This document shows positions 2,256 to 4,448 of a DNA stretch of 14,360 bases, piece by piece. The DNA lies in NCBI GenBank assembly GCA_021775835.1, contig JAJFHC010000044.1:1-14360 (forward strand), given 5' to 3'. Each line of letters starts with the position of its first letter. Within the stretch, counting starts at the first letter, position 1. Origin of the DNA: Hyphomicrobiales bacterium (lineage in GTDB: Bacteria > Pseudomonadota > Alphaproteobacteria > Rhizobiales > JAJFHC01). The notes under the pieces were generated by a model. That model did not search any database. It was not told where the DNA came from and saw only the letters and a program-made list of their open reading frames with translations. The position numbers were made by a program, and so were the translations under genes.

Positions 2256-3434
2256 TTAACGGATCACCGGGACGTCCCGTGCGGCGCGGCGCGTCAGCAG
2301 TTCGCAACCGTCTTCTGTGATCACCACGTTTTCCTCATGAACCAGCATTTTGCCGTCGCCATAAGCCATGCCCGGTTCGATGGTCATGACCATGCCGGGA
2401 ACCAGCATGGTCTGGTCGCCGAGCCGGTTCGACGGCGGTTCCGTCAGTTGCATACCCAGACCGTGGCCGAGGCGTCCGACGTTGAGGTCCGTCGATCCGG
2501 CGTCTTCGAGGACACGGGCCATTGTCGTGAAAAGGTCCTCGGACGTAATGCCGGGGCGGGCTGCAGCGATGCCGGCTTCAGTGGCCTGCCAGACGGCTTC
2601 GTGCACTCTCGCCAGATCGTCGTCCACATGGCCGAACGCGAAATTGCGGTCGAAGTCACATGAATATCCATCGTAGATTGCCCCAAGGTCGATGAACAGG
2701 ACGTCGCCGTGCCCGAGAACCCTTTCGGTCGGGCCGACGATGATCTGGTCGTAACCGCCGTGACCGGAGCAAACGGCCATGAACGGGATGGCATCGACGC
2801 CGCGCTCGGTGAGTTCAAGGCGGAATTCACGGCTGATGTCATGTTCGGATTGTCCCAGCGCGAGGCGGTCCGGGAGGGCTTGATAACCGTCGCTGGCGAC
2901 GCCGCAGATGTACCGGATCTTCTCGATCTCGGCGGCCGACTTGACCATGCGCATTGCCCAGATAGCAGGCGAGCCGTCGACGAACTCCAGGCCTGATATG
3001 CCGTTCCGGATACGATCGAAATCGGCGATCGGCATGCGGATGACGGATTCGCGCCCCATCTCCCAACCGACTCGTCCGAAACGCCGGGGCACGCCTTCGA
3101 GAACTGAGGTGACCAGCGATACCCCGTCATCCTCCGGTTGTGGCGCGGGCCAGGTGCGGATGTCGGCAATCCAGGTGCGGGCAAAGCCCGGTCCGCCAAT
3201 TTCAGGCACGACCGCGACAGGCGCACCCTCGCGCGGCAGGATGACGAACCACGGTCTGGTCGGGCTTTCCCAGAACTGGGATGCAAAACCTGAAAAATAC
3301 CTCACGTTGTGAGGTGACGATACCACCAGCGCGTCGAGCTCCTGATCGACCATTATGCTCTGGGCCCGTGTCAGGCGCTGTTCGTATTCTGTTGTGGCGA
3401 AACCGCGGGCCGGCGCCAGTCGATTTTCAGTCAT
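2256..3434 (-). CDS. M24 family metallopeptidase (Xaa-Pro aminopeptidase/creatinase type)
   Basis: A 392-aa cytoplasmic pita-bread-fold enzyme. The N-terminal domain (about 1-160) contains NVRYFSGF, typical of the creatinase/prolidase N-domain. The C-terminal domain carries all five expected dinuclear metal ligands: Asp249 and Asp260 in FIDLGAIYDGYSCDFDR, His324 in GRLGHGLGMQ, Glu353 in TIEPGMAYG and Glu367 in VHEENVV. Family members cleave Xaa-Pro peptides or hydrolyse small amidino or amide compounds (creatinase, ectoine hydrolase DoeA), and motif reading cannot separate these. It is about the usual length for bacterial aminopeptidase P-like proteins of the short class. It stands alone on the minus strand, convergent to the crotonase gene and with no transporter or co-substrate gene beside it. 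The ribosome site before the ATG is weak. Family confidence is high, substrate unknown. Confidence 0.9.
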   Translation of the reverse strand: MTENRLAPARGFATTEYEQRLTRAQSIMVDQELDALVVSSPHNVRYFSGFASQFWESPTRPWFVILPREGAPVAVVPEIGGPGFARTWIADIRTWPAPQPEDDGVSLVTSVLEGVPRRFGRVGWEMGRESVIRMPIADFDRIRNGISGLEFVDGSPAIWAMRMVKSAAEIEKIRYICGVASDGYQALPDRLALGQSEHDISREFRLELTERGVDAIPFMAVCSGHGGYDQIIVGPTERVLGHGDVLFIDLGAIYDGYSCDFDRNFAFGHVDDDLARVHEAVWQATEAGIAAARPGITSEDLFTTMARVLEDAGSTDLNVGRLGHGLGMQLTEPPSNRLGDQTMLVPGMVMTIEPGMAYGDGKMLVHEENVVITEDGCELLTRRAARDVPVIR

Positions 3435-3471
3435 GATGTGGAGAGCCGTTTTCGTTGTTGTTTATGATCCC

Positions 3472-3501
3472 AGTATGACCAGAGCAGGCCGCTGCTTTCA
3501 A
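3472..3501 (-). promoter_or_regulatory. Possible promoter of the M24 peptidase gene
   Basis: On the minus strand TTGAAA (3501-3496) and CATACT (3477-3472) are separated by 18 nt, about 38 nt before the start codon. The match to the housekeeping consensus is moderate and was read by eye only. Confidence 0.28.
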
Positions 3502-3538
3502 GCAGACATTGTAACCAGACACTGAGGCGCAAAAACAG

Positions 3539-3567
3539 TTGCCCGAATCCGCGAACAGGGCAATACT
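3539..3567 (+). promoter_or_regulatory. Possible promoter of the 24-codon ORF transcript
   Basis: TTGCCC (3539-3544), a 17-nt spacer and AATACT (3562-3567) precede the small ORF, giving a predicted leader of roughly 30 nt. Each box matches the consensus partly. The downstream intrinsic terminator, which faces the same way, independently requires a promoter somewhere in this gap. Confidence 0.4.
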
Positions 3568-3586
3568 CATTGTATGTTCAACTATT

Positions 3587-3601
3587 GAAAGGAGGTGATC
3601 C
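3587..3601 (+). promoter_or_regulatory. Near-maximal Shine-Dalgarno sequence of the small ORF
   Basis: GAAAGGAGGTGATCC is a 15-nt uninterrupted match to the complement of the bacterial 16S rRNA 3' tail, ending 1 nt before the ATG at 3603. Chromosomal ribosome sites usually match 4-7 nt. The spacing from GGAGG to ATG is normal (7 nt). Confidence 0.8.
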
Positions 3602-3602
3602 A

Positions 3603-3677
3603 ATGTCTCATGAGAATTCGGTTCTGTCGAAGGACTTTGGATATAGTGCAGGTCTAACGGAGAAAACTTCGTTCTAG
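3603..3677 (+). CDS. Predicted 24-aa small protein, unrecognised
   Basis: ATG at 3603, 24 sense codons, TAG at 3675-3677. The peptide begins MSHENSV, has KDFGYS in the middle and ends GLTEKTSF. It has no cysteine, no hydrophobic stretch for a membrane helix, and roughly balanced charge (two Lys, one His, two Glu, one Asp). The case for translation rests on the exceptional ribosome site directly before it, a promoter-like pair upstream and an intrinsic terminator 61 nt after the stop. No other + strand gene lies between the M24 start and that terminator, so the unit is self-contained. I recognise no family: the PqqA Glu/Tyr pattern and mycofactocin-type endings are absent, and no radical-SAM or peptidase-transporter maturation genes flank it. 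It could be a small functional protein, a leader whose translation regulates the RNA, or a dual-function RNA. Confidence 0.6.
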   Translation: MSHENSVLSKDFGYSAGLTEKTSF

Positions 3678-3688
3678 CCGCCTATCAC

Positions 3689-3714
3689 CTTCGGTCCGGA
3701 CGATCCGGCCGAAG
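3689..3714 (+). ncRNA. Hairpin in the 3' part of the small ORF transcript
   Basis: CTTCGG (3689-3694) pairs with CCGAAG (3709-3714), and CCGGA (3696-3700) with TCCGG (3704-3708), leaving one bulged T and a 3-nt loop: 11 bp in all. It sits between the stop codon and the terminator hairpin. It is flanked by ATCACCT (3684-3690, sharing two bases with the stem) and CACCTC (3715-3720), both complementary to the ribosome site upstream. Confidence 0.55.
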
Positions 3715-3737
3715 CACCTCGACAAACCATCTCATGG

Positions 3738-3763
3738 AGGGCCGCAGCAATGCGGCCCTTTTT
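3738..3763 (+). terminator. Strong intrinsic terminator of the small ORF transcript
   Basis: AGGGCCGC (3738-3745), a 6-nt loop, GCGGCCCT (3752-3759), then a run of five T (3759-3763). The T run is only on the + side, so it ends + strand RNA. The only + strand gene-like object upstream since the crotonase is the 24-codon ORF. Confidence 0.85.
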
Positions 3764-3799
3764 GATTCTGTGGTACGCATTCGAACTTTAATGCGCATG

Positions 3800-4339
3800 T
3801 CACCGGGACAAATCGAAGGCTTCTTCAAGCGCTTTGGAACAGTCTCCGTCGGGCTTTGAGATCATGATCGTGCGCAATTCCCGCGAGAATTCGGCGCCAC
3901 GCTGAGTAATTGAGAAGTGGAACGAGATCAGGGTATCGCGGTGGCGCGACGGCAATAGTGTTTTGTCGGAGCGGAGTTGCTCGGTCACGGGGCCGCCGGT
4001 GATGTGGTAACCGGTAACCCGCCAACCATTGCGGACCGTGCCGACTGCCGATCCCGGTGTTCCAAAAAATCTTGCCGTGATGTGAGTTGGTTCATTACCG
4101 GAGGCCGGCGTCTTGCCGGCACAGATCAGACCTTTCCCTTGAACCGCTGTGAAGCGAACTTCTCCCGCTGCCTGGCCATATTCTGGTTGGCAGCCCATGT
4201 ACCTTGGCGTGCTACGCTGAGTATGTGCGTAGGCTTCGTAGGCGTCGACCGCGCACTCGGCGGTTGCTGCCGGACTCTGGTTTGCACCCAAACTGGCCAT
4301 CGCCAATGCAAGCCAAACCATTTTTTTGGAAATCCTCAT
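3800..4339 (-). CDS. Secreted protein of unknown function (179 aa)
   Basis: The start chosen is the ATG at 4339 because AGGAGG lies 9 nt before it on the minus strand; a start further upstream at 4378 would add 13 residues that break the signal peptide layout. MRISKK, a hydrophobic core (MVWLALAMASLGA) and an AATA-E cleavage site near residue 27 form a Sec signal peptide. The mature part has four cysteines (29, 50, 73, 167), enough for two disulfides in the periplasm, and no further membrane segment. I do not recognise the domain. It lies 109 nt downstream of the glutathione transferase gene on the same strand and converges on the small ORF terminator. An exported soluble protein is well supported; its role is unknown. 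Confidence 0.75.
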   Translation of the reverse strand: MRISKKMVWLALAMASLGANQSPAATAECAVDAYEAYAHTQRSTPRYMGCQPEYGQAAGEVRFTAVQGKGLICAGKTPASGNEPTHITARFFGTPGSAVGTVRNGWRVTGYHITGGPVTEQLRSDKTLLPSRHRDTLISFHFSITQRGAEFSRELRTIMISKPDGDCSKALEEAFDLSR

Positions 4340-4448
4340 CAGGCCAACCCTCCTGCAATTGCGACCGCCGCCCTTCACTCTGGACTCTGGCGCTCAACGC
4401 AGGAGACGATACCCGAATGTGCGGGCAAGGCAGCTAAAATCACCGTGT

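Follow-up and report, generated by a model that had tools for sequence, protein, structure and literature searches.

Results

A self-contained unit with an exceptionally long ribosome site

A short plus-strand unit in a 14,360-nt stretch of DNA from a Hyphomicrobiales bacterium (hereafter the window) raises the question of what it is kept for: a 24-residue micro-protein, a regulatory RNA, or the act of translation itself. The original prediction described a Shine-Dalgarno (SD) match of 15 nt to the complement of the 16S tail, a 1-nt spacer, an ATG, 24 codons, a stop, a hairpin and a terminator pointing the same way, and we found every element in its place (Table 1). The ribosome site, GAAAGGAGGTGATCC, is an exact complement of the alphaproteobacterial 16S tail sequence GGAUCACCUCCUUUC, and is the sole match in the window even when three mismatches are allowed, a laxity at which 0.44 matches are expected. 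The S. meliloti 16S 3' sequence GGCUGGAUCACCUCCUUUCU is contained in an oligonucleotide printed in the accessible part of PMC6943124, and we infer that it is also valid for the window's organism. One nucleotide (A3602) separates the site from the ATG (3603-3605), the 24 codons end at TAG (3675-3677), and a terminator-like hairpin (3736-3761) is followed by a T run ending at 3763, all on the plus strand.

The unit sits between two minus-strand genes, one for an M24 peptidase (Pfam; start at 3434) and an ORF ending at 3800, and the gap between them is, as predicted, empty of standard genes: no ORF of at least 60 aa spans 3434-3800 on either strand. The downstream ORF (3800-4378, minus strand) encodes 192 aa without a Pfam match and is partly conserved in L173, the closest relative found. 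The sequence from 3572 to 3766 folds far more stably than its shuffles (z = -5.1, with 0 of 200 as good). Since a sigma-70 consensus scan did not include the promoter-like block at 3538-3568 among its listed sites, the promoter function of this block is putative.

Table 1. Features of the unit in window coordinates.
Feature	Positions	Strand	Evidence
Promoter-like block (GTTGCC, 17 nt, CAATAC/TC)	3538-3568	+	31/31 nt same in L173, both sides diverged
Predicted transcript, ~189 nt, predicted ends	3575-3763	+	Conservation resumes at 3575 past a variable 6-nt stretch; RF01867 match 3579-3758
RF01867 (CC2171) full-length match	3579-3758	+	53.5 bits, E=1.4e-10, curated cut-off 75
Extended Shine-Dalgarno GAAAGGAGGTGATCC	3587-3601	+	Complement search; core GGAGGTGATC in relatives
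24-codon ORF MSHENSVLSKDFGYSAGLTEKTSF, stop TAG	3603-3677	+	Frame kept open across family
Helix P1 5' arm CATGAGA (codons 3-5; extendable by TC 3606-3607)	3609-3615	+	Covariation
Helix P1 3' arm TCTCATG (extendable by GA 3737-3738)	3730-3736	+	Covariation
Hairpin AACGGAG-AAAA-CTTCGTT, codons 18-24	3656-3673	+	Single-sequence folds
Anti-SD ATCACCT right behind stop, complements 3593-3599	3684-3690	+	Complementarity to own SD
Post-stop hairpin CTTCGGTCCGGACGATCCGGCCGAAG	3689-3714	+	Single-sequence folds
Second anti-SD CACCTC, complements 3592-3597	3715-3720	+	Single-sequence folds
Intrinsic terminator GGGCCGCAGCAATGCGGCCC + T5	3739-3763	+	Terminator scan; 24/25 nt same in L173

L173 shares the surroundings of the unit: the two sequences are 79.7% identical across 2053 aligned columns. 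They agree at 64% for 3437-3539 and at 83% for 3540-3574; from 3575 to 3602 the count is 28 of 28 positions, the ORF has 72 identical positions of 75, the stretch 3678-3738 has 53 of 61 and the terminator 24 of 25, and beyond it identity falls to 60%. The unit is thus a conservation island in this comparison, with 87-100% identity inside the predicted transcript and 60-64% in the flanks. All three differences in the 75-nt ORF are nonsynonymous.

The unit is a homologue of the CC2171 RNA

The original prediction recognised no family, a view that does not stand. Although Rfam at its gathering thresholds gave no match in the window, nor in 10 relatives at the position of the family unit, a search in E-value mode brought up RF01867 (CC2171), which the window matches from model position 1 to 159 of 159, with the SD block aligned at high posterior. 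The full-length alignment takes in helix P1 and the terminator, and P1 covaries in an alignment including both. Because the score of 53.5 bits lies below the curated cut-off of 75, we file the window as an RF01867 homologue and not as a curated member. The 12 relatives tested all match the model at 27-54 bits (E 2e-8 to 0.02), likewise below 75.

CC2171 RNA was reportedly first described by Landt in 2008. It has the same SD, start-codon position, P1 helix around the middle and terminator as the window unit. Its consensus reads GAAAGGAGGUGAUCCA GUG UCU CAU, whereas the window has an ATG start and a different interior; the RF01867 entry is typed "Gene; sRNA", with no ORF mentioned in the output. 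A family member in M. huakuii, MH_s33, is listed with RNA-seq coordinates in the accessible part of PMC5596092, and a table entry in the part of the Rfam 15 paper available to us touches CC2171/RF01867. The alphaR8/SisA-D sRNAs resemble the unit in being alphaproteobacterial sRNAs with an anti-SD-like stretch, but as described in the accessible part of PMC12559287 they come in four copies and have a UUUCCUCCCU core, which is absent from window positions 3575-3763.

Searching the contigs of GTDB species for AAAGGAGGTGATCCNATG returned at least 118 loci. Of these 118, twelve were judged unrelated by eye (L012, L017, L039, L040, L041, L057, L064, L065, L089, L102, L103 and L112); the other 106 comprise 102 with an ORF of 16-36 aa, three with 57-59 aa and one truncated at a contig end. 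Before counting, L006 and L018 were also set aside because a contig end cuts them; at a later stage L136, L141 and L143 were removed as unrelated, and L124-L129, L220 and L221 as duplicates. Judging from the 80 loci with titles, carriers are alphaproteobacterial, except L078, a MAG labelled Gammaproteobacteria. Searches with RF01867 itself (E<=0.001) matched 48 of 101 genomes in the order of G001, seven of them over the cut-off and each at one place, and 61 of 289 genomes in the class, nine over the cut-off, at 68 places and at most three per genome; among 14 control genomes only Caulobacter vibrioides matched. The unit is usually present once per genome. At one family locus (L028:7753-7804, plus strand) we also observed a Whalefall-1 RNA (RF01762; 44 bits, above its own cut-off).

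For comparisons across the family, 197 members were reduced to 170 unique sequences, and 163 were used after dropping seven with ORFs longer than 40 aa (six of Azospirillum type and L218, which is unrelated); ORF length is 14-36 codons in 163 of the 170. Because a match to GGAA?GGTGATCC.[AGT]TG was the entry criterion for all 170, this block is invariant among them by construction. For tests at the block itself we used the 50 best-scoring RF01867 loci, comprising 30 of the 48 places in the order and 20 of the 68 in the class, which were unselected for a start codon. This set includes L186, whose variant SD the pattern missed and which is outside the 170, and is the only one in which the later additions L225-L244 are counted. 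A terminator was detected in 157 of the 163 members.

Ribosome site, start, frame and stop are kept

Across the class, GGAGGTGATCCNATG was matched exactly in 37 of 385 genomes, while a reversed control matched in 2 of 385 (not every match being confirmed as a unit); within L004's genus, 60 of 61 genomes have the pattern, and two of these have it at a second place as well. These counts argue that the long SD is not due to chance. Among the 50 best-scoring loci, the core GGAGGTGATC (or the core plus one A) is exact in 44, and the six variants read GGTGGTC, in which a G-U pair is possible at the changed A. In L119-L122 (Rhizobiaceae) the SD has an extra A (GAAAGGAAGGTGATCC, GGAAGG), mirrored by CCTTCC behind the stop. 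Extended SD motifs in S. aureus share the pairing that reaches toward the start codon; they occur at an estimated 30% or so of initiation sites there (PMC13009471, accessible part), whereas the window's match is 15 nt long in a class where SDs are sometimes scarce. In Caulobacter, 75.4% of genes are without an SD according to the accessible part of PMC4117421.

Several features suggest that the RNA is translated. An ATG or GTG stands one nucleotide past the SD core in all 50 best-scoring loci (44 with GGTGATC, split into 30 GTG and 14 ATG, and six with GGTGGTC), a count that is not fully independent because the RF01867 model covers the start-codon block. Over codons 6-16 of the 163 unique members, stops occur once in 1793 codons in frame, compared with 87 and 38 in the shifted frames and 3.6% predicted from composition. 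Stop position is conserved and stop type is not: codon 19 of the MSHG (sphingomonad-type) group (n=49) is TAA in 22, TGA in 21 and TAG in two, and codon 24 of the MSSDFV group (n=22) is TAA in 14, TGA in four and TAG in two. RNA structure alone would hardly account for such swapping between stop types. In the GTG-start group the position is not fixed, codon 26 being a stop in just 9 of 18. Overall, the conservation of reading frame and ribosome site in relatives, on which the original prediction had staked itself, was borne out, and the window unit is very probably translated.

The S. meliloti homologue (L119) encodes a peptide, MSNEISDLVMDMGEVKESRQPSA, of 23 aa and computed pI 4.18. SEP1 of S. 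meliloti has the same length and pI (Hadjeras 2023, PMC10117765), and we infer from this match of length and pI only that the two are identical. In the accessible parts of that study, SEP1 has the top translation efficiency (TE) among 54 unannotated ORFs, is Western-confirmed as SEP1-SPA with one native peptide-spectrum match, and is by elimination one of eight SEPs located in full or in part in the P100 fraction (PMC10117765). Its top TE fits a strong SD as in the L119 homologue, which has one extra A. The same parts present SEP1 as a small protein with conservation across Rhizobiaceae, and make no link to CC2171. The L119 record (CP090106.1) is labelled pSymB yet is 3.72 Mb, a chromosome's size, and is the sole S. 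meliloti-named record among 13 plasmid matches; the S. meliloti locus is probably chromosomal. Our literature search, with most subscription papers beyond reach, found no paper that reports translation of the CC2171 family. What is new here is that RF01867, a family typed as sRNA, looks translated.

The peptide sequence is not detectably kept

The synonymous bias expected of a conserved micro-protein was sought and did not appear. From codon 2 onward, pN/pS is 1.5 in the MSSDFV group (20 sequences), 1.35 in MSHG (45) and 0.82 in GTG (9). Counted from codon 6, the in-frame value is 1.9 for MSSDFV (shifted frames 0.51 and 0.93), 1.3 for MSHG (0.75 and 0.83) and 0.90 for the GTG group (0.92 and 1.10), and in the window's own clade (11 sequences, codons 6-13) it is 0.80 (0.78 and 1.08). 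Across four groups of few, related and short sequences, amino-acid selection was thus not detected: values range from 0.72 to 1.9, and none is clearly under both shifted frames. As a control, the six Azospirillum-type ORFs of 56-59 aa gave 0.51; the method is weak and the control modest, because one shifted frame of MSSDFV also gave 0.51. Peptides from different lineages have little in common; the motifs MS..., (D/G)(F/L/M)G and EQP recur.

The Azospirillum-type loci (L037, L075, L087, L123, L130 and L133) have the same SD and start and a terminator-like end. By eye their longer ORFs contain a hydrophobic stretch resembling a signal peptide, and the one tested gave no Pfam match above cut-off. 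A locus of this type looks like a protein gene grown out of the RNA.

The RNA has a covarying helix and predicted competing folds

Helix P1, spotted by eye and tested afterwards, joins codons 3-5 to the base of the terminator. In 50 chosen members, 79.1% of cells are paired and changes on both sides occur at 7 of 7 pairs. The covariation score is 0.526, compared with at most 0.145 for slid versions and with 0 of 500 shuffles as high; seven pairs changing on both sides arose in 20 of 500 shuffles. The outermost pair forms in just 16 of the 50 and the innermost in 27. This alignment holds 50 of 90 chosen sequences, the other 40 (18 of them sphingomonad-type) having been excluded deliberately because their 3' arm looked misaligned by eye. 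Duplex energies cover a wider set: in the 157 members with a terminator, matched arms reach -10.6 kcal/mol against -6.9 kcal/mol for arms from other groups, and in the 40 left-out sequences -12.2 matched against -8.5 swapped. The difference holds in the 22 non-sphingomonad left-outs (-9.5 against -6.9) and is absent in the 18 of sphingomonad type (-15.4 against -15.5), where P1 is invariant.

A second class of pairing involves the ribosome site. A perfect complement of at least 6 nt to the SD lies behind the stop in 11 of 23 members of the window's clade (defined by starts of the form [MV]S-x-E-[IVN]), compared with 2 of 140 other members and with 4% of positions elsewhere in these RNAs. Among these sequences the post-stop anti-SD is clade-specific; an anti-SD in every lineage is weakly supported (mean pairing of 154 members -13.5 against -11.7 in shuffles, 23% in the top 3 of 41). 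A motif past the ORF that pairs with its own SD region is also known from icaR mRNA, in which the 5' and 3' UTRs pair, and the window has such a downstream motif in ATCACCT. However, icaR is a repressor gene with a long 3' UTR (PMC3868564, accessible part), whereas the RNA of the window unit is 190 nt long, its peptide is unconserved and P1 competes with the pairing.

Predicted folds of the window place these pairings close together. For 3575-3763, the P1 fold (-75.3 kcal/mol) and the fold pairing the SD with 3715-3720 (-74.5 kcal/mol) are 0.8 kcal/mol apart; for the longer piece 3572-3766 the latter is the optimum. Pairing of the SD with 3684-3690 is not in the predicted optimum of 3575-3763, its fold lying 11 kcal/mol higher at -64.3. 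P1 and SD:anti-SD pairing are mutually exclusive under nested folding, a model that excludes pseudoknots. RNAalifold found almost nothing in a mixed 53-member set, and gave SD-pairing folds with P1 absent for sets of 7 sphingomonad and 17 other sequences. Many relatives have, by eye, a hairpin at a place similar to that of the codon 18-24 hairpin, often with a CAGC or CAGT loop.

Weighing the explanations

Translation combined with selection at the RNA level is, in our view, highly likely. Selection seems to act on the ribosome site, the start, an open frame of limited length, the stop, P1 and, in the clade, the anti-SD. The original prediction of a highly translated micro-protein or dual-function RNA holds insofar as the unit is self-contained, conserved and very probably translated, and the unit may be a dual-function RNA; a micro-protein as the selected product is not supported. 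That a 24-aa, SEP1-like peptide is functional and tolerant of sequence change, with the RNA features only securing high expression, is unlikely. It would account for the conserved start, frame and stop, for the synthesis of SEP1-SPA, the single native spectrum and the P100 placement by elimination (accessible part of PMC10117765), for the recurrent motifs, and for a clade pN/pS lower than one of its two shifted frames (0.80 against 1.08). Set against it are the pN/pS values as a whole, the three nonsynonymous changes out of three to L173, the scant likeness between peptides of separate lineages, and the overlap of the MS and EQP codons with P1 and a hairpin. The reading given by Rfam, a non-coding sRNA whose ORF is incidental to an SD-like sequence serving RNA pairing, agrees with the RNA-level constraint and with the statement that Caulobacter ncRNA regions are untranslated (Schrader 2014, PMC4117421), although the inclusion of CC2171 among those regions is not evident from the accessible part of that paper; we consider it very improbable, for incidental ORFs are not expected to retain start, frame and stop. 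Because the micro-protein explanation fails to predict the RNA part and the non-coding one fails to predict the frame, we prefer a ribosome-gated RNA.

Two further explanations bear on the ribosome site and the layout. The SD could be protective or a decoy, holding the 30S subunit to stabilise the RNA or titrating 30S or anti-SD-bearing sRNAs, with translation a by-product. A parallel is STAB-SD, attributed to Agaisse and Lereclus in 1996, which resembles the unit in a very strong SD that could stabilise RNA by retaining a 30S; reportedly it acts without a start codon, whereas start and stop are kept in the window's family. The core, exact in 44 of the 50 best loci and with possible G-U pairs in its six variants, and the usual single copy per genome suit this explanation, but by itself it leaves unexplained the kept open frame and the three-codon kept stop in two clades, and we consider it, too, unlikely. 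A leader peptide or attenuator of the downstream gene is highly improbable. In its favour, hairpins and a terminator come after a short ORF, and 57 of the 141 family loci where a next gene is visible have that gene on the same strand; however, it is on the opposite strand in the other 84 and in the window, which disfavours attenuation, and no neighbour cluster covers more than a fraction of loci. The largest cluster found in a search for a conserved neighbour comprises 31 proteins encoded next to the unit, and the ones listed come from sphingomonads. Sphingomonad loci (e.g. L002 and L013) have a recurrent upstream same-strand small-protein gene in this cluster, of which six sequences were inspected.

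Discussion

We propose that the window unit, an RF01867/CC2171 homologue, is a mini-mRNA in its own right: a regulatory RNA gated by ribosomes, in which selection acts on translation being carried out and not on the peptide. We give this reading an even chance. The gating component, taken alone, is plausible but falls somewhat short of that. The RNA would switch between two mutually exclusive nested folds: with P1 closed the SD would be fairly open, and with SD and anti-SD paired it would be shut. The extended SD could anchor the 30S subunit even though codons 3-5 sit in P1, and anchoring followed by translation would melt P1 and cover the anti-SD. Ribosome loading would in this way determine which fold the RNA adopts and, through it, how long the RNA lasts or how it acts in trans, with stability, a trans-acting segment and 30S titration as candidate outputs. 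More speculatively, and on balance doubtfully, the family may be a mini-mRNA widespread in Alphaproteobacteria, mostly in single copy, whose SD covers the full tail and whose two folds compete; it would sense free 30S and signal through its fold or lifetime, its start having been taken over in the Azospirillum type by an exported-type protein of 56-59 aa.

If the proposal is right, an Rfam family typed as sRNA would become a translated one, spread over many Alphaproteobacteria below the Rfam cut-off, and a top-ranking micro-ORF in Ribo-seq would be explained. The family would provide a natural case of frame, start and stop selected without the peptide, in which translation as the function could be tested by point mutations. 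It would also be a warning that high translation efficiency alone does not imply a functional protein.
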